In this document: piece after piece, positions 25,276-35,066 of the stretch
Layout of the letters: each line of letters begins with the position of its first letter
Position numbering within the stretch: the first letter of the stretch is position 1
Assembly: GCF_964204645.1 (NCBI RefSeq)
Contig: NC_134032.1
Coordinates: 12,766,275-12,830,274, forward strand
Origin: Tubulanus polymorphus
Taxonomy: Eukaryota > Nemertea > Palaeonemertea > Tubulaniformes > Tubulanidae
DNA length: 64,000 nucleotides
Direction: 5' to 3'
Position numbers and translations under genes: made by a program
Notes under the pieces: generated by a model
Seen by the model: only the letters and a program-made list of their open reading frames with translations
Database searches by the model: none
What the model was told of the DNA's origin: nothing

Positions 25276-26637
25276 TTATATATTTCGAACAGCAAGAGCA
25301 GTAAAAGAGTATAAGAAATGTGCTACACCTAAAGCTATGAATATTGCCGAGTAGCCTATGAAAGGTTCTACAGCGCCAGCTGCGAGAATGAATATGATTA
25401 CAATCACACGCGATACCAATCCATCTATTGCATATATAGTCTCATAATTGCCGTTGAATTTCGTATCGGTGATATCAGTGAGCCACGAAAAACTAAAACT
25501 GGTTATCAGTCCAAACGATAGTTTACAGATTATATCGGAACCGAACGCTTGCCAGACGTTTGTAATGAACGGATATGAAACGAATGAAATTGTCGTCATT
25601 ATGCAATAAACGATGAAATAAATCCAACGATGTTTCCTAGTTTTCGCCACCAGTAACCCAAATGTAATTGTGCTCAGGAATAGAACTGTCGACGATACCA
25701 ATATCACTGATGATATTTGCCACTGTTGTGCACCCTTAGAGACCTGTTCGATCAATAAAGGCATATACATATATCGTATATTGATAGAGATGTTATAAAG
25801 GCATTTCAGCCCGATTATCACCATCGTTTGGCCGTCTGTCAACATTGATTTTACAAGATTCATTTGGATAGGTTTCTCTTCAGATTTCCCCGAACTGGCA
25901 TTTTCTATCTCAACGAATGCACGAGTTACGCTCGTTATTACAAGGGCGGAGAAAAGAACCCAAAATGGCATCGCATATCCAACAAATTCGATCTCGTACA
26001 AACTAGTAGCATAACCATAAGCACCAGCGGTGTATGCAACACCGTACACTGCAGCTAAAGCTATAACTCGGTTGGCTTCGTTTTTAGACTCAATTGTCAC
26101 CATAGTGGATCCTGCAACCTTCAGAAACGTAACGGCAAGCCCGACGAGGAAATTCAGAATCAGCAATATCCACCAGATCGACACGAAAGCGGAGATCAAA
26201 ATAGTAACGAGTCCAAGGATCAGCCCAAACCAGAACGGGTATAGGTGACCATATTTGAATGTTAGTTTACCACACGATATATATGCAATCAGCATCCCAA
26301 CATCGTACGTGGCTTTGGTGATGGCCACCTTTCCAGCAATATGACTATCAGCAAGCAATGAACTATTGCGGAATCCACCTTGAAGATCGCTGACTACGGC
26401 AATTAATGCTCCTGATGACATTTTGACAATAAGACCTGATAGACATACGATACCAACGATAACTATAAGGTTTGCACGACAGCGGATTTGACAAAAATGT
26501 CCTTCTGGTGATGGCTGCTGCTGCCGCCGCTGCTGCTGCTGCTGTGTCTCAGATAAAGTTCCGTAATTGTCATTTACATTCGTGTCGTCGTCAAACAAAC
26601 TTCCTTTCATTTCAATTTCTTCAAGTTTCATCTTCAT
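25276..26637 (-). CDS. MFS-type multi-pass transporter, intronless, substrate unknown
   Basis: 453 aa with about 11-12 hydrophobic membrane segments. The first is NLIVIVGIVCLSGLIVKMSS near residue 57. A long cytosolic loop (VEIENASSGKSEEKPIQMN) near residue 245 separates two six-helix halves, the architecture of the major facilitator superfamily. The loop between helices 2 and 3 (CGKLTFKYGHLYP) is a degenerate MFS motif A. The N-terminus is cytosolic with a Gln-rich run (QQQQQRRQQQ) encoded by CAG/CTG-type repeats. There are no introns in the coding region, so the gene may derive from a retrocopy or belong to an intronless lineage. A truncated paralogue is at 38925-39842. I cannot assign a substrate. 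Confidence 0.75.
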   Translation of the reverse strand: MKMKLEEIEMKGSLFDDDTNVNDNYGTLSETQQQQQRRQQQPSPEGHFCQIRCRANLIVIVGIVCLSGLIVKMSSGALIAVVSDLQGGFRNSSLLADSHIAGKVAITKATYDVGMLIAYISCGKLTFKYGHLYPFWFGLILGLVTILISAFVSIWWILLILNFLVGLAVTFLKVAGSTMVTIESKNEANRVIALAAVYGVAYTAGAYGYATSLYEIEFVGYAMPFWVLFSALVITSVTRAFVEIENASSGKSEEKPIQMNLVKSMLTDGQTMVIIGLKCLYNISINIRYMYMPLLIEQVSKGAQQWQISSVILVSSTVLFLSTITFGLLVAKTRKHRWIYFIVYCIMTTISFVSYPFITNVWQAFGSDIICKLSFGLITSFSFSWLTDITDTKFNGNYETIYAIDGLVSRVIVIIFILAAGAVEPFIGYSAIFIALGVAHFLYSFTALAVRNI

Positions 26638-27236
26638 ACTTGTCTTTTAAAACGCTAAAATCATTCAATCTAGCAATATAGAAATGTCGATCTTATCTGC
26701 AGAAAACTGTGCCGAATTCGAACCAAGAAAACGGATGGACAAATTTTAGACTTCAGCTGACAAGAAACAGATTAACCTGCTAACAAAACAATTATGATTC
26801 GAGGGAACGAATTATGTATGACCTGGTCATGGTAATGAATCTTTTATTATGTTAAATTGTTATAGTATACGCTATATTGTTTATGCTTGTATATGGATTT
26901 AAAAGTCCATAAGAGTTTATTACTTTTGGCAATAAATACAAGTAATAATAGTTATTCGAATTGACCAGCGATAACGTACGGGTCACCTATAAATAACTTA
27001 GGGTGTTACGACTTGTGCATTCGAACGTGTCAATGTCATCCAGGTACAAACTTGGTACAAGTACATTGTTGAATCTAAAGGTTCGCGGAAATGTCTGGAT
27101 CTATGGGTCAATTTAAAGTCTTTATTTTTTAAGGATTTCCCTTTAGCCGAAGCGTAAGTGCGCCGCGCACTTTTCAGCTCGTGTGCGGGGGTTTTATCAA
27201 TCAACGCCCTTGTAAATGCCGAAGGAAATCCAAACG
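26638..27236. other. MFS gene 5' flank; nothing else recognised
   Basis: No gene or clear repeat between the MFS start codon and the MORN2-like remnant. A poly-AT stretch at 26850-26960 is the only notable composition feature. Confidence 0.4.
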
Positions 27237-27522
<286 letters not shown>

Positions 27523-27699
27523 TGAATTATCAAATTACTGTAGATAGAACCGATCAAGACTGTACATGTATCATAGTTTTAATCAAACCTGCGTACCTGT
27601 GCCGCTTTCTTACTGATGGTCACCGTGCATAGCACTGTCGTTGACCGTGACGCATACACGGACCTAACTATGCACTGTATATTAGAAACACAAAACTGC

Positions 27700-27776
27700 G
27701 CGGTAGAAGTTTTGATTTGGAGCTCTCCAAAAAAAGTAGAAATCCATTCCGACTACAAAAAGCAAAACTGCCAAAG
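27700..27776 (+). pseudogene. Dead copy of a short first exon (see 63758-63790)
   Basis: aagttttgatttggagc followed by an exon-like stretch ending at a GTGAGC donor matches 63723-63796. The start codon has become ATC (27742-27744), and the copy is two bases longer (35 versus 33), shifting the phase. It sits in the expected position for a first exon of the kinase remnant that follows. Confidence 0.6.
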
Positions 27777-28084
27777 GTGAGCCAATCGAATTTACAACGC
27801 AGAAATCTGCACAAATCACATAAAAGAAGCAACGGGTTCACTAGTAAGTAAGGATCAGTTGTTCCATTTCAAAATTACATCATCACGAATGAATATGGGA
27901 ACCGAGAATTTTAAAGCAAGAAGTTTTGATCTCAAAACCATAACTGCCGTCATCGCAAGCCTAATGAGTCACCGCTACCACTACTGTGGCAAGGTTCGCT
28001 AGTAGTTACTCGGTTATCCGCATTTCAATCAAAATCGAATCAATTTTTTAATTTTTTATTTTCTTAAAATTTTTTCTTGAATGA

Positions 28085-28190
28085 TATGGTTGCCTTACTT
28101 TTTGTCGTACAGTTACTCGAAACAACGTTAAGAGAGCCAACGAAAATCATGGCCGAAGTTTGCGCTAAACATAAACTTCAACCAAGGGGT
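28085..28190 (+). pseudogene. Decayed phosphagen-kinase exon (upstream domain)
   Basis: Aligns with exon 29679-29862 of the following domain (tatggttgccttactttttg, aacaacgttaagag, atggccgaagtttgcgctaa) but has lost about 35 bp and the frame. The region around the reactive Cys, CPTNLG in the good copy, reads CRTVTR. It indicates that the gene once had two kinase domains. Confidence 0.75.
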
Positions 28191-28285
28191 TACAAACTTT
28201 CATAGGCTAAGAAAGACATAAAAAATGTGAATTGTTCATCTTAAGCTTCTCATTTTTTCTTACTTCATATTCTTTAATGAGGTAT

Positions 28286-30234
28286 ACATGGTGAACATAC
28301 TGTCAGCGCTGGAAGTATTTATACTATTAGTAATAATTGTAGATTGGGACTGTCTGAAATCGAAGCTGTCACCGAAATGGCTGAAGGCGTCAAAGCCATC
28401 ATCGCCAAAGAAAAAGAAATGGTAATTGTTGCGATGAATGTCGATAAACTGGGATTTTTTTCATAGTTTCCAACAATCTTTATTTTGACATTCACAGGAA
28501 AGTAATTGGCAATATCCAGGTAGCATCGAAGATATGTACTCGTTGCTTGCAGAATCCAACTCGAAATCATTGTTGAAGAAATACCTGACACAAGAGGTAT
28601 TTGAAAATCTCAAAGATAAGAAAACTAAGCTTGGTGGAACATTGGCGCATTGCATCAATTTAGGTAAACATTCATCATTTAAAAGTAAAGGGAAATGTTT
28701 CGAAGTCGTGAGCAGCTTTTTATTTTTTTCTAATATTCGTTATGTTCATCAAATCTAGGTGTTGTTCACTTGGAGAGCCGTAATGGCATTCGTGCCTGTG
28801 ATCCGGAAGGATACGAAACGTTCAAAGATATTCTGGATCCAATTATCAAAGAATATCACATGTTCAAGAATTCTGAAATCAATCACCCGGATCCGGATTT
28901 CGGAAACTTGGAAGCTCTTCCATTTGGTGATGTTGACCCAGATGGTAGATATGTTGTTTCAACACGGGTTCGTGTTGGTCGCAGTGCAGACGGTATTCCA
29001 TTTGCTCCGTCTATCAGTGAAACGGTAAGTCCTGCTATTCTAGTAACGGCGGTATTTCATTATCATTGTAATAGGATACTGTATATTGGAAGAATCCAAT
29101 GCAATTTCAACGAGTCAATTCAATCATTGTAGCAACGGGCCAAAGTTGAAAGCAAAATCATGAAAGCTTTCGAATCCCTTCAAAGCGATAAGGAATACCA
29201 GGGTACCTATTACCAGTTGCCAAAACTGACTCATCAAGAGGCTGACCAACTGAGGATGGATCATTTCCTATTCAGCGAAACTGATGAGTAAGTAGATTTG
29301 TAATTAGGATCATACGTCAACTTTGTACAGCTGCTCTAAACAACTGATTTGAATTTGGATTCCTTTGGCAAATTACATTTTCTTATATTCTTATTCATTC
29401 GTAAACGAATTACTTTCAGAATATCTCGATCTACAGGTGTCTATCGCGACTGGAGTAAAAATCGTGGAATCTACTGCGGTAACGACAAAAAATTCCTCGT
29501 ATGGGTAAATGAAGAAGATCACTATCGTTTCATATCCATGCAGAAAGGAGGTGACCTCGCCCAAGTGTATCGCAGATTAGTGAAAGTATGTATGGTATCT
29601 GATCCTCCTAGAATCCCTACTATAATAGGGAATCAATGATCAACGGTTGATCATGCTTCAATTTCATTTAATTTCAAGGCTGTTAAAAAGGTGAAGCAAC
29701 AGGTTAAGTTCGCGCACAGTAAACGCTATGGTTACCTTACCTTTTGTCCTACAAATCTCGGAACAACGTTAAGAGCCAGTGTACACTTGAAGATACCAAA
29801 GCTTTCAGCGAACAAGACAATGATGGCCGAAGCTCTTGCTAAACATAAACTTCAGTCGCGAGGTAAATGAGTTGTAGGAGTCTCCTTAAAATCAGTCCAA
29901 ACTACTCTACTTTTATTTCTTCGCGATGGTGGGATTCTGTGCGATGTTAACCGCGGCACTAGTTTCAATTGTCTTCATTTTACCTGCTTTAGGAACATAT
30001 GGTTATAATACTGAGAGCGTTGGAGGTGTTTATGATATAAGTAATAAACGCAGATTGGGACTGTCTGAAATAGAAGCTGTCACAGAAATGGCTGACGGCG
30101 TTAAAGCCATCATCGCAATGGAAAAAGAACTGGAAGAAAAGGAGAGCAGTAAGAAATGGAAAATCGAATCGTCATTGCATTCCAATCACTTTACCGCCCC
30201 CTCCTCAGGGGACCAGCAAATCTGTTCGTTATGA
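28286..30234 (+). CDS. Phosphagen (arginine-type) kinase domain, diverged, 5'-truncated gene
   Basis: ATP:guanidino phosphotransferase family. Phase-consistent exons: 28286-28421 (tail of a preceding domain, ...[16 protein letters not shown]...), 28498-28663, 28759-29024, 29133-29287, 29420-29585, 29679-29862, 29993-30234. Conserved: STRVRVGRS (nucleotide-binding Args), [15 protein letters not shown] (catalytic Glu and Arg), [14 protein letters not shown] (reactive Cys), [13 protein letters not shown]. Altered: the guanidino-specificity loop, SGVGIY in arginine kinases, reads SRNGIR. The mobile loop GEHTES reads GYNTES, so the Glu/His pair (E314/H315 by horseshoe-crab numbering) is Tyr/Asn. 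The last 20 or so residues come from a dispersed repeat. Upstream exons are missing or dead (27700, 28085), so this is either a recently inactivated duplicate or a shortened, altered-specificity enzyme. Confidence 0.8.
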
Positions 30235-30710
30235 AAGTAAAGATACAAATGTTAAGGTTCATTCGATGAAAGTACCATCGTCGTACCATCCTCGCTGTGT
30301 ATACCAACCTAGCTGACTTGCTCTTACATTTTATTGTTATTATAACTATCATATCATTATTATCATTATTATCATCATCATCATCAATCATTAAAATTTG
30401 TTGGTCCAAACTCGAGCGTTTTATACATGAGGCAAATGCGAATATATTCACCCGCCGCGTGTTTTTGATCTGTGAATTTAGTAGGCTCATGTACCTCACG
30501 CCTTCGATCATGAGTACCGTCGCTGACTCTTATAGAATATTTAAAACGGTATGTTGGTTTTGAAAAATATTTAACTGATCTTCCTTTTATTCAAGAAAAT
30601 CATTTTGCGGGTTTCGTAAATGATTGAAGTCTGTATTTGAACTGGACATCTTGTCTGCCGAATTGCTGAGCGATCAAACCCGTAGAAAATAGACCTGTCC
30701 CTCAGCCAGA
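30190..30710. repeat. Direct repeat flanking the receptor pair, left copy
   Basis: Shares with 34190-34670, in the same order and orientation, 'caggggaccagcaaatctgt', 'cgaggcaaatgcgaat', 'gccgcgtgtttttctg' and then a minus-strand receptor fragment. It starts inside the last kinase exon. Confidence 0.75.
30632..30707 (-). pseudogene. Rhodopsin-type receptor fragment
   Basis: tttgaactggacatcttgtc and the next 50 bp match the ICL3/TM5 region of the intact receptors (31565-31645). Nothing else of the gene survives here. Confidence 0.7.
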
Positions 30711-31301
30711 TTCTAGTACGGGACAAATGATTGCTTCGCTTTGTTTAAGCATTGTATTTATAAACTTGAACTTGAACTTGAATAATAACAAAAATTTATT
30801 TTCTTATAGCGCCGTAATAATGGAATTTAATCACGGCGCTTATTTATTGCGCCGTACATTTAGACATGTGATACCGGGTTACAGCTCAGATGTATGAAAA
30901 TCGATTGAACGGACTCTTAAGCCTGATCCGTGCCAATTCATTCGACCCGGACCAAATCGTCTCCGTGCGTGTGCAGTATAGAACTCGATACCTCGTTCCG
31001 GGTCTTTTGCTGTATGGTTAATTTGGGTTAATTTTTATTTTTATCACATATACACTTTCGTATTAGTCGCTGATACTGTTGTTTCGTTGCTCCAATATCG
31101 TGTAAGGTTTGTGAGGTTTCGAACCAACCTCGATATATCCGATACGGAGACGTTTCATTCTGACAAATGGTTCGCAAAACGAGCCACCGCACTTCGCGAA
31201 ATATTTTCAACGTAAAATTCCGTCACTGATATGAGATAGATTTTCTACACATACCGTGGATCGTTTTGAATCAGGTTCGAATCCCAACTACTTGAATATT
31301 C
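30711..31301. other. No gene seen
   Basis: Spacer between the receptor fragment and the 3' end of the first receptor. It contains a short palindrome, gcgccgtaataatgg/...cggcgc, near 30810-30855, and nothing else that I recognise. Confidence 0.4.
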
Positions 31302-32276
31302 TCATAGTTTCACTATGCGGATCAATTCTTCACGAAATAACTTCAAATTCGCGATATATATGAAAAAATTTATAGCACTGTTTGTGATAGTAAGGGTTCC
31401 CCCGACGAGGTTCAGCAGTTGTAATATTTGAATCGGCAAATGCCTCAGTTTTCCACTCGTAAAGTTGACCAGGTTAAGTACAGTATTTGGCGCGTTCAAT
31501 ACGAAAAAAGCCACGATTACGCAAATTAGATTGCGTACGCATCTGCGTTCCTGTTCGCAAGTGTTGGTGTTTTTGAACTGGACATCTCGTCTGGCGAACT
31601 GAATACTGATCAAAACCGTCGAAAATATCAAACCTATCCAAGGAAGTATGGTGACGGTTAGATAGGAATAGATTATGTAAAAATAAACAAATGCATCCCC
31701 TACACTCTTTGATGGACAAGTCTTATATCCCCTTAAATAAGTCACAATACCAATTGCACTTTCCATTAAGGCGAAATAGATAAACACCAATATAACGAGA
31801 TTCCTGCGTCGAACCCGGGTCATCAGGCTTCCAATGCGCAGCGGTACTAGCACTGCTATACTGCGCTCCAAGGCAAAACACAACAAAATCCAAGAAGAGG
31901 TTTTTGTTCCGAAATTGATGAGCACCATTCCCAGTTTACAGATTACATCGCTAACGGAGTAGAATACATACCGACCATGCTTATTACCGGTCACATAGTG
32001 GATTCTTTCCAGAGACCTCAACGAAAAAGTGATGACGAAGATCGAATCGGAGAAAGCTAGCGGTACCAGATACTGAAAGGTACACGCGTCTAACGTGCGA
32101 CGCAGACGGAACAAGACGACTATAGACAGTAAACCCCCGGTAACACCGGTCACCATACAGAAATAGATGTAAATATTGAACGTGTACCAAATACCGCTCT
32201 GCCACGTACTAGATTGAAACATGTGACTTGTGAAAGCGTTTTCTGTCACTGTAGAGTTCGTACTCGGTAAAATCAT
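31302..32276 (-). CDS. Rhodopsin-like (class A) GPCR, tandem copy 1
   Basis: 324 aa, intronless, seven hydrophobic segments. The N-terminus carries N-glycosylation sites (NST) and no signal peptide. The TM3 Cys (DVICKLG) and an ECL2 Cys (YKTCPSK) can form the usual disulfide. The TM3 end reads ALERSIAV, where class A receptors normally have DRY. TM6 lacks the CWxP motif (VLNAPNTV). TM7 reads NSAINFFIY in place of NPxxY. A basic ICL3 (CEQERRCVRN) precedes TM6. This set of deviations resembles lineage-expanded peptide-receptor-like GPCRs of spiralians. The ligand is unknown. It is a close paralogue of the gene at 32972-33955. Confidence 0.85.
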   Translation of the reverse strand: MILPSTNSTVTENAFTSHMFQSSTWQSGIWYTFNIYIYFCMVTGVTGGLLSIVVLFRLRRTLDACTFQYLVPLAFSDSIFVITFSLRSLERIHYVTGNKHGRYVFYSVSDVICKLGMVLINFGTKTSSWILLCFALERSIAVLVPLRIGSLMTRVRRRNLVILVFIYFALMESAIGIVTYLRGYKTCPSKSVGDAFVYFYIIYSYLTVTILPWIGLIFSTVLISIQFARRDVQFKNTNTCEQERRCVRNLICVIVAFFVLNAPNTVLNLVNFTSGKLRHLPIQILQLLNLVGGTLTITNSAINFFIYIANLKLFREELIRIVKL

Positions 32277-32971
32277 CTTCTATCCTTCATTCGTGTCATT
32301 TACCATTTTTGTTGAAGCACTTAAAATCGGCCAGTCCATTAAGACTCCGCTCGATTCTGAATTCATTCAAAATGAAAGCACTTACGAATTGGAATCTGAT
32401 GGTAATGCGTAAGGACTAATGGGATGAAATGTGAAATATACCTAGCAGCTATTAGATATTCAAACAGTAAGCTATGTCTAGCTTTTAGCTCTTATCTAGA
32501 TTAACTCGAGTTGAATGATTTAAAACAATCGTTGATATGAACTACGACATGTTTGAAGGTGTTTGATATGAACATTGAGATGTATATTTACATCAAATTA
32601 ATCAATACCTTTTGTTGATTAAATTCCTACAGTTTTGTTCAAACGATATGGGTAGTAGAGGGCGGTATGAGTGATAAGAGTTACCGCAATAACGTACTGG
32701 TCACACGTCAGCTATTGGTCATCACACTGACCAGACAAACGTAGTATTGTCACCATCCATCGTGCGAGCGTGCTGCGGACGATGGTGGTACAAGCCTTCG
32801 CAACCAAGCGTGGCTCGCATTATAACGGGATAGTCAGAATTTCTTTCTTTTTATAGTTTTGATTTATTTTCCATGAAGAGGTCGCTCATAGCAAACAATT
32901 TTTTCGAAACACGGTCCTATCGCCATCAAGCCAAAGCGACAATACTCGCGGGCGCTCTATATTGAAAATAC
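32277..32971. other. Spacer between the two receptors
   Basis: No gene. It presumably holds the promoter of copy 1 and the 3' end of copy 2, with a short inverted word around 32756-32790 (catccatcgtgcg/cggacgatgg). Confidence 0.4.
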
Positions 32972-33955
32972 TCAGAGTTTCAATAAGCGCACCAACTCTT
33001 CACGAAATGACTTCAAAGTCACGATATATATGAAAACATTTACAGCACTATTTGTGATCATTAAAACGCCCCCAATAAGGTTAATCAAGTGGTCTATTTG
33101 TTTTGGTAAATGTCTTAATTTGTCACTCGTATTGCGAACCAGGAGAATTACAGTATTTGGCGCGTTCAAGGCGAAAAATGCAACGATTATGCAAATTAGA
33201 TTGCGCACGCATCTGCGTTCCTGTTCGGAAGTGTTCGTGATTTTGAACTGGACATCTCGTCTGGAGAACTGAATACTGATCAAAACCGTCGAAAATATCA
33301 AACCTATCCAAGGAATTATAGTCATAGTCGAAAGGGAGTAGATTATGATTATTTGTGCAATGATTTCTCCCGAAACTATGTTTGTTTGGCAGTTTTTTAA
33401 GCCATGTCCGATGGTTTTAACATGGAAAATGATACCCTGAGCGCCTTCCGTAACAGCGTAGTAAAGAAAAACCGATATAACAAGATTTCGGCGTCGAACC
33501 CGGGTCGCTAGTCTCCCGATGTGCAACGGAATCAGTACCGCTATACTGCGTTCCACGGCAAAACACAACAGAATCCAAGAAGAGCTTTTGATTCCGAAAT
33601 TGATTAGCACCATTCCCAGTTTGCACGTGACGTCATTAACGGCGTAGAACACGTAGCGACCATAAGCCTCGGTGCCGGCCACGATGTGGATTCGTTCCAG
33701 AGACTTTAACGAAAAAGTAAATACAAAAATCAAATCGGAAGAAGCTAGCGGTATCAGATACTGAAAGGTGCACGCGTCTAACGTACGACGCAGACGGAAC
33801 AAGACGACTATAGACAGTAAACCCCCGGTAACACCGGTCACCATCCAGAAATAGATGTAAACATTGAACGTGTACCAAACACCGTTCTGCCACATACTAG
33901 ATTGAAACATGTGACTTGTGACGGTGTCTGTCGAGTTTGAACCAGTAATTGCCAT
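32972..33955 (-). CDS. Rhodopsin-like (class A) GPCR, tandem copy 2
   Basis: 327 aa, intronless, same topology as copy 1. TM1/TM2 (VTGGLLSIVVLFRLRRTLDA) are nearly identical, while ECL2 (residues about 175-195) and TM7 differ most, as expected if ligand binding diverged. It has ERS at the TM3 end (FAVERSIAVL), LNAPNTVILLV in TM6 and NSAVNVFIY in TM7. N-terminal NST sites are present. Tandem, same orientation, 695 bp upstream of copy 1, so a local duplication. Ligand unknown. Confidence 0.85.
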   Translation of the reverse strand: MAITGSNSTDTVTSHMFQSSMWQNGVWYTFNVYIYFWMVTGVTGGLLSIVVLFRLRRTLDACTFQYLIPLASSDLIFVFTFSLKSLERIHIVAGTEAYGRYVFYAVNDVTCKLGMVLINFGIKSSSWILLCFAVERSIAVLIPLHIGRLATRVRRRNLVISVFLYYAVTEGAQGIIFHVKTIGHGLKNCQTNIVSGEIIAQIIIIYSLSTMTIIPWIGLIFSTVLISIQFSRRDVQFKITNTSEQERRCVRNLICIIVAFFALNAPNTVILLVRNTSDKLRHLPKQIDHLINLIGGVLMITNSAVNVFIYIVTLKSFREELVRLLKL

Positions 33956-35066
33956 CTTCCAGGCTACTGCTTTTACAGTGCATACACGTACGTAATTTTA
34001 CAGCTACCGAGGTCCACCCATTTATTAGCTGGCATCTCTTAAAACCAAATCCATTTGCTAATAAAACCAGGTTCTGTTTAAAGTAGAATCTATCCATTAA
34101 ACTCCCCGTGCGTAAACGAATTTTAAAAAGTAAAATCTGTTCACACGATAAACGATATTATACAGAATTGCCAAATAAAGGAGATACATTGAACTTCACC
34201 GCCCTTCTCCAGGGGACCAGCAAATCTGTTTGTAATGGAATTAAGAATACAAATTTGTTAATTCATTCGACGAATCGTTACAGTATACGTTGCTCCTAAA
34301 TCGAGCGTTCTTCGCACGAGGCAAATGCGAATTTTGATATTCAAACGCCGCGTGTTTTTCTGTGCTGTAAGCAGAAGCCCGTGTACGAAGTGGCAGGAAG
34401 TGTGCTAAAAAATAAAATCTAAGTACTTTTCCCCCTTTTTCTCCTGCACTATCTGCCTATCGTAGTTGATTGATCTTTGTTTGATCTTTGTTATTTTCTA
34501 ATTCTCTTACACATCTCTTGTGACTTGTATACTCGTAAATACAATAGTGTGACTTGTTAGCCCATATGGGCTGAGCACCAATTTCTTATTATATGTTAAT
34601 CTAATAATACGTATTCATGTGTATTTGAACTGGACATCTTGGCTAGCGAACTAACTATAGAGTATCAGTTTTTCAGGACAGCAAATGGCTGTCGAATGTT
34701 CCAACATTTCGATACAGTTAAATTCTAATTGAGTTTCATAATTATGTAATTAGTAAATTTTGTAATCAAACCCTTCGTGAAACTGAATTTTAATCGTAAT
34801 TAACTAAGCATGATCAAGGAAATTCGATTATGATTGAGATCTGTCACGGATTTCTATGCGGCCACCAATCCACTGAACGCACGCGAGTCGCAATTAAACT
34901 GCACCAGCAATTCTATTTATCTACACTTTTTTTACAATATATCGACTCAATTTCGTTTCAAAATCGCTGACAAGCTATGATTCCGATGGCATTTAAACCG
35001 CCAAAAAGCCCGTGATACCCGTCGAGCACCATCGTTCGCGTCATCATTTCAATCAATTCATCGATC
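33956..35066. repeat. Receptor 5' flank and right copy of the flanking direct repeat (34190-34670)
   Basis: 34190-34400 and 34618-34670 repeat the left flank at 30190-30710, including another receptor fragment on the minus strand (34622-34668, tttgaactggacatcttggc). 34700-35066 shows nothing recognisable apart from the promoter side of the next gene. Confidence 0.65.

Follow-up and report, generated by a model that had tools for sequence, protein, structure and literature searches.

A truncated copy of the end of a predicted six-domain arginine-kinase gene, with an altered substrate site, in the nemertean Tubulanus polymorphus

Introduction

What is to be made of a phosphagen-kinase domain whose nucleotide-binding residues are kept and whose guanidine-binding residues are not? 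The question is raised by a domain copy, here called W, on contig NC_134032.1 of Tubulanus polymorphus (assembly GCF_964204645.1, 267.8 Mb). W lies in a stretch of 64,000 nt, positions 12766275 to 12830274 of the contig, which we refer to as the window. An initial annotation of this DNA described W as an intact domain with a selectively rewritten substrate site, and proposed an altered guanidine specificity or a regulatory role, with early pseudogene decay as a further possibility. Here we compare W with the other phosphagen-kinase domains of the genome, with bacterial relatives and with known structures, and ask which of these readings is best supported.

Results

Structure of the domain copy

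The exons of W and of the features around it are given in Table 1. All five internal introns are GT-AG with consistent phases, and the frame runs without stop or frameshift to a TGA at 30232–30234, so that the exons are open and correctly spliced, as had been annotated. Together they encode 392 residues, a complete phosphagen-kinase domain. Pfam PF02807 matches exon 2, and in the genome search PF02807 and PF00217 were both above cut-off at the W exons. The phosphate-binding arginines (STRVRVGRS), the glutamate of NEEDH and the reactive cysteine of CPTNLG, features of the family that the initial annotation read as intact, are all present. The disabled frame or splice sites that mark an unprocessed pseudogene are absent from W itself; disablement is confined to the relic exon 5 upstream, and W no longer has the parental stop. 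The TAG of the parental last domain is TGG in W, which adds the tail; a KESSKK tail is common to W and B6, the last domain of the array described below.

Exon 1 opens at a splice acceptor, and W has no start codon of its own upstream of it. In-frame ATGs that could serve as starts occur at 28377 and 28419, both within the relic exon 6 of a preceding domain, and at 28534, inside exon 1. The relic exon 5 (107 nt) carries three indels, namely a 1-nt insertion, a 31-nt deletion and a 2-nt deletion. The relic exon 6 still reads GEHTV, as first reported; its codons absent from every B domain number seven nonsynonymous and no synonymous in the first 23 codons, and two nonsynonymous and one synonymous in the last 24.

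Table 1. Features of the window and related loci on NC_134032.1 (window positions or window equivalents, except for cluster A)
Feature	Position	Strand	Remarks
Major facilitator superfamily match	25276..26646	-	456-residue open frame
MORN-repeat exon or fragment	27244..27411	+	just 5′ of the W copy
Relic exon 5 of preceding domain	28087..28193	+	begins mid-exon; last 5 nt reach into intron
Relic exon 6 of preceding domain	28281..28421	+	open, no indel, donor GT kept, ends KEKEM
Domain W, whole	28498..30234	+	phosphagen-kinase domain copy
Domain W exon 1	28498..28663	+	splice signals, homology to B domains
Domain W exon 2	28759..29024	+	carries SRNGIR (parent-type SSNGIY) and STRVRVGRS
Domain W exon 3	29133..29287	+	splice signals, homology to B domains
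Domain W exon 4	29420..29585	+	carries NEEDH
Domain W exon 5	29679..29862	+	carries CPTNLG
Domain W exon 6	29993..30234	+	carries TYGYNTES; B6 stop lost, 25-residue tail
Rhodopsin-type receptor frame (Pfam 7tm_1)	31302..32279	-	single exon
Rhodopsin-type receptor frame (Pfam 7tm_1)	32972..33997	-	single exon; adjacent to the preceding
Cluster B, domains B1–B6	68740..79088	+	beyond window end
B7	80386..83901		single domain, 3′ of the six-domain gene; SGTGIY and GEHTES
Cluster A, domains A1–A3	contig 12690514..12699523	-	three fused domains

The other frames of the window listed in Table 1 match different families; judged by eye, the two receptor frames resemble each other.

The six-domain array and other arginine-kinase loci

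Genome profile searches gave at least 37 and at least 20 matches, lower bounds with the best candidates scored, and among these candidates the matches of both family models fall in three places on one contig: cluster A, W and cluster B. Cluster B, a paralogue of the kind that had been expected beyond 63.8 kb, starts about 4.7 kb past the end of the window. Its six fused domains, B1 to B6, form a joined frame of 2163 codons, including one terminal stop and with no internal stop, and in B1–B5 each last exon ends in a donor whose phase fits the acceptor of exon 1 in the domain that follows. The ordinary state in all six is SSNGIY and IHGEHTES; their arginine-kinase type is assigned by motif, as a predicted activity. 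In cluster A the joined A1–A3 frame has 1064 codons including the stop, again with none internal. The gene models of both clusters are built on motifs and splice signals, and the start position of B1 is approximate. The domain junctions of cluster A lie inside single exons, the last exon of one domain being fused with the first of the next.

Since per-exon trees of the B domains disagree and intron 4 of B5 and B6 is 97% identical, the sequences point to exchange between domains within the array. Parts of the six-domain gene look homogenised.

Fused phosphagen-kinase domains are known from structures. The two-domain arginine kinase of Anthopleura japonicus (PDB 4rf6-4rf9) and a two-domain taurocyamine kinase (PDB 4wo8) each consist of fused domains that align over nearly the whole of W; they have two domains each, against six and three in the T. 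polymorphus genes, and they keep GEH in the lid loop of both domains, whereas W is without it. In the structure-database alignments the Anthopleura enzyme is not the closest match to W. For the sea anemone Nematostella, isoforms of both creatine kinase and arginine kinase are reported (a title cited in PMC6429109). The best single-domain match, the arginine kinase PDB 4bg4, has the same fold family and substrate-loop length as W but reads SGVGIY and RGTRGEHTE where W reads SRNGIR and RGTYGYNTE. Among the papers listed by searches of open-licence full text, no six-domain arginine kinase was recognised from titles and the openings of abstracts.

Origin of the copy

W spans about 2.1 kb and was copied from the 3′ end of an arginine-kinase gene with six domains. 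Its homology to the array starts partway through exon 5 of a penultimate domain, covers the introns and extends 16 nt beyond the parental stop. The protein is 86.4% identical to B6 over 367 residues, which excludes a chance origin of the likeness at sequence level, and 79.4–85.0% identical to B1–B5; B6, the nearest relative, lies about 47 kb away. Because the homology spans introns, B6 is the closest domain and the KESSKK tail is common to both, W is, as judged from these alignments, a copy made at the DNA level from the 3′ end of a B-type array. W and B1–B6 are alike in the six-exon layout, the phases, the nucleotide-site arginines, NEEDH and CPTNLG. They differ in that Arg at 64 and 68 and a TYGYN lid loop occur only in W, and in that W is single, truncated and without the parental stop.

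Changes at the substrate site

Residues are numbered as in Limulus by anchoring on motifs, and positions 64, 68, 311, 312, 314 and 315 of W are presumably correct in that numbering. In the two substrate elements, W differs from all six B domains by S64R, Y68R, I311T, H312Y, E314Y and H315N. The first element had been described as a change from SGVGIY to SRNGIR; SRNGIR is indeed present, but the parental state is SSNGIY in six of six domains, and only the S-to-R and Y-to-R changes are specific to W. The second had been given as GEHTES to GYNTES; GYNTES is there, but the change is larger: where exon 6 begins, four residues out of five in a row differ from the parental RGIHGEHTES. Its restriction to this domain was correctly noted: the genome search matched 12 exon-6 copies, and all but W retain GEH.

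The conservation of these positions was assessed against the 10 other domains of the genome and 47 bacterial relatives from one scan. Position 68 is Tyr in all 10 paralogues and in 42 of the 47 bacterial sequences, and position 314 is Glu in all 10 and in 46 of 47; neither Arg at 68 nor Tyr at 314 occurs in any of these (in one bacterial sequence, position 68 falls in a gap). Among the bacterial kinases, position 311 is T in 36 of 47, 312 is variable, and 315 is K in 34 and N in two. Since 68 and 314 are highly conserved while 311, 312 and 315 are mostly T, variable and mostly K, respectively, the loss of Tyr68 and Glu314 is the alteration that matters most. Both residues contact arginine in functional arginine kinases, and the initial annotation was right that the arginine site is altered in W. 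Tyr68 is reported to hydrogen-bond the amino group of arginine (PMC5598448), and calculations have Glu314 bonding the guanidinium with a role in proton transfer (PMC11075012). In Clonorchis taurocyamine kinase, a Tyr-to-Arg change near the guanidine site (Y84R) is reported to leave the single domain D1 inactive, while the whole enzyme with Y84R keeps low activity (PMC3836730); by our own reading, Y84 is a different tyrosine of the same pocket as Tyr68.

The start of exon 6 is unusual at the nucleotide level too. Six changes absent from the B domains fall within five of its first six codons, in one 18-nt stretch, and the next 17 codons hold none. Such a pattern resembles clustered mutation more closely than it does four adaptive steps taken independently. 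A search of window 27001–31500 for a templated source gave no match of at least 10 bases and one of 9.

Is the substrate site singled out?

It had been claimed that change fell selectively on the substrate site and spared the nucleotide site. The private residues of W, those found in none of B1–B6, do not bear this out: they number 36 of 359 and are scattered over the domain. Three of eight arginine-contact positions are among them against 0.8 expected (P = 0.037), a weak enrichment in a set of positions that was chosen post hoc and is our own list. All seven nucleotide-site positions are kept, which would happen by chance about half the time (P = 0.47). With window sizes of our own choosing, clustering of the private changes is weak by amino acid (P 0.06–0.20) and moderate by nucleotide (P 0.002–0.03).

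Selection on W

Private nonsynonymous and synonymous changes (N:S) are 36:17 in W, against 4:9, 5:13, 8:28, 5:11 and 4:24 in B2 to B6, or 26:85 pooled (Fisher P 6e-8). Relative to synonymous changes, private amino-acid changes thus run at about 3–4 times the array rate. B1, with 31:23, is not different from W (P 0.32). In codon maximum likelihood with three topologies, the W branch has omega 0.33–0.35 against a background of 0.12 (2ΔlnL 15.9–16.7), and omega 1 is rejected (2ΔlnL 14.8–21.4). B7, a long branch attached inside the array, and A1–A3 were left out of these fits, and the results from single trees are read with caution, as per-exon trees disagree and domains seem to exchange sequence; private-codon counts were therefore added. 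Simulation of these counts gives W an omega of about 0.5, with P 0.015–0.027 for omega 1.0 and P 0.02 or below for omega 0.2, the latter being disfavoured also when the linker and loop cluster are left out.

A different picture comes from the 156 codons that are identical in all B domains, where W has 15 N to 4 S, an omega of about 1.2 (1.22), with no departure from neutrality; codons identical in B2–B6 only give 18 N to 6 S and omega 0.97. The matching N:S values are 0:6 for B2, 0:5 for B3, 2:11 for B4, 0:11 for B6, 6:5 for B5 and 21.7:18.3 for B1. Because B1 sits in an intact array and has a private N:S not different from that of W, and because the invariant-codon ratios of B1 and B5 are not low, the N:S ratio by itself does not prove a loss of function. 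The estimates differ because shared changes are handled differently in them, and by every one of them W is relaxed in comparison with most of the array.

At the 60 sites kept in at least 90% of the 47 bacterial kinases, W has three changes (S55L, A201T and E317Y, W numbering) where 6.0 are expected (P 0.11), and B1–B6 have none. The 31 private residues of B1 avoid all 60 sites, with 5.2 expected.

The frame tells in favour of constraint. Compared with the B domains (all six for protein; B2, B4, B5 and B6 for DNA), the W exons have no gap in 1077 nt, whereas the W and B6 introns have 14 gaps in 508 aligned nt and the 248 nt of relic exons contain three indels, every one of them in relic exon 5 (P 0.007 in comparison with the W exons). 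The chance of no nonsense change under neutrality is 0.085. Given this intact frame, W has probably been protected during much of its history, or is protected even now.

Discussion

The most economical reading is that W is a truncated, relaxed duplicate that is drifting to non-function, with decay in progress; we put its probability at about 0.58. We favour it because the upstream domain is broken, the private N:S ratio is high, the parental stop is lost and the arginine contacts are lost. In this scenario, a segmental duplication would have copied the end of a penultimate domain and the whole last domain, with introns, in truncated form. The copy would then have escaped the sequence exchange that seemingly acts within the array, and the changes of Tyr68 and Glu314 would be part of a general relaxation; a single clustered mutation event, or a few, may account for the four residues altered where exon 6 begins. 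Any product made may bind nucleotide and phosphorylate arginine poorly or not at all, and W would be drifting towards non-function with its frame so far kept. W is thus predicted to be probably a poor or dead arginine kinase, and possibly a pseudoenzyme.

Early decay, which the initial annotation had mentioned as a possibility, is the better default, but the neutral dN/dS of about 1 named there as its sign is not clearly seen: whole-domain estimates are 0.33–0.5, with neutrality at P about 0.02, while the invariant codons do give 0.97–1.22. Further points against decay are the 1077 nt without stop or indel, the intact splice sites and the changes at deeply conserved sites, which are not above chance.

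The main rival explanation is that W is a retained pseudo-phosphagen kinase: an expressed single-domain protein, started at 28377, 28419 or 28534, in which the fold and the binding of nucleotide persist and arginine kinase activity is gone. It might then serve to sense nucleotides, for instance, or associate with the six-domain enzyme. We regard this explanation as rather doubtful. The W frame and splice sites were kept while the adjacent relic exon 5 decayed, as were the nucleotide-site arginines, NEEDH and CPTNLG, and relic exon 6 has fewer new codons in its second half, where the two in-frame ATGs lie, than in its first (3 versus 7, both small counts). However, the changes of W are spread over the whole domain and reach deeply conserved sites that no B domain has altered. 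The more specific proposal of a conserved offshoot that keeps nucleotide binding, has lost arginine phosphorylation, serves as a regulator and takes its start codon from the leftover exon is unlikely.

Altered guanidine specificity, one of the two roles first proposed, is not favoured here; we consider it quite unlikely. In this reading Arg64 and Arg68 would suit the pocket to an acidic guanidine (taurocyamine, hypotaurocyamine or glycocyamine, for example). Two new positive charges do stand where the substrate carboxylate and amino group bind (PMC5598448), and the weak contact-site enrichment is in its favour. Yet the loop keeps the length of the array's arginine-kinase-type domains, and W has lost, as well as Tyr68, the nearly invariant Glu314, which in calculations is bonded to the reacting nitrogen (PMC11075012). 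Nonsynonymous changes are raised throughout the domain, so relaxed constraint can account for them with no need of a new specificity. The loss of Glu314 should hurt the phosphorylation of most guanidines. Creatine kinases lack Glu314.

A further possibility, that W remains a functional arginine kinase whose unusual site is tolerated, is very unlikely. Omega is below 1 by most estimates and the frame is open, and loss of His315 alone may be mild, since H315A in Daphnia arginine kinase is described as having no significant effect in an unfolding assay (PMC8839106); but Tyr68 and Glu314 are both gone, replaced by residues that none of the compared sequences has at these positions. Assembly or base-calling errors in this single assembly are an extremely improbable source of the motifs, as the substitutions keep the frame, six of them fall within 18 nt, and the copy differs from its relatives throughout, introns included.

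If the preferred reading of a relaxed, decaying duplicate holds, W shows that a domain copied from a multi-domain enzyme can lose its substrate site during general relaxation. Among the papers listed by a search of full-text literature, titles and abstract openings gave no example of a catalytically altered phosphagen kinase of this kind, which is what W would be if it were expressed and conserved. The neighbouring six-domain arginine kinase is more interesting than W itself.
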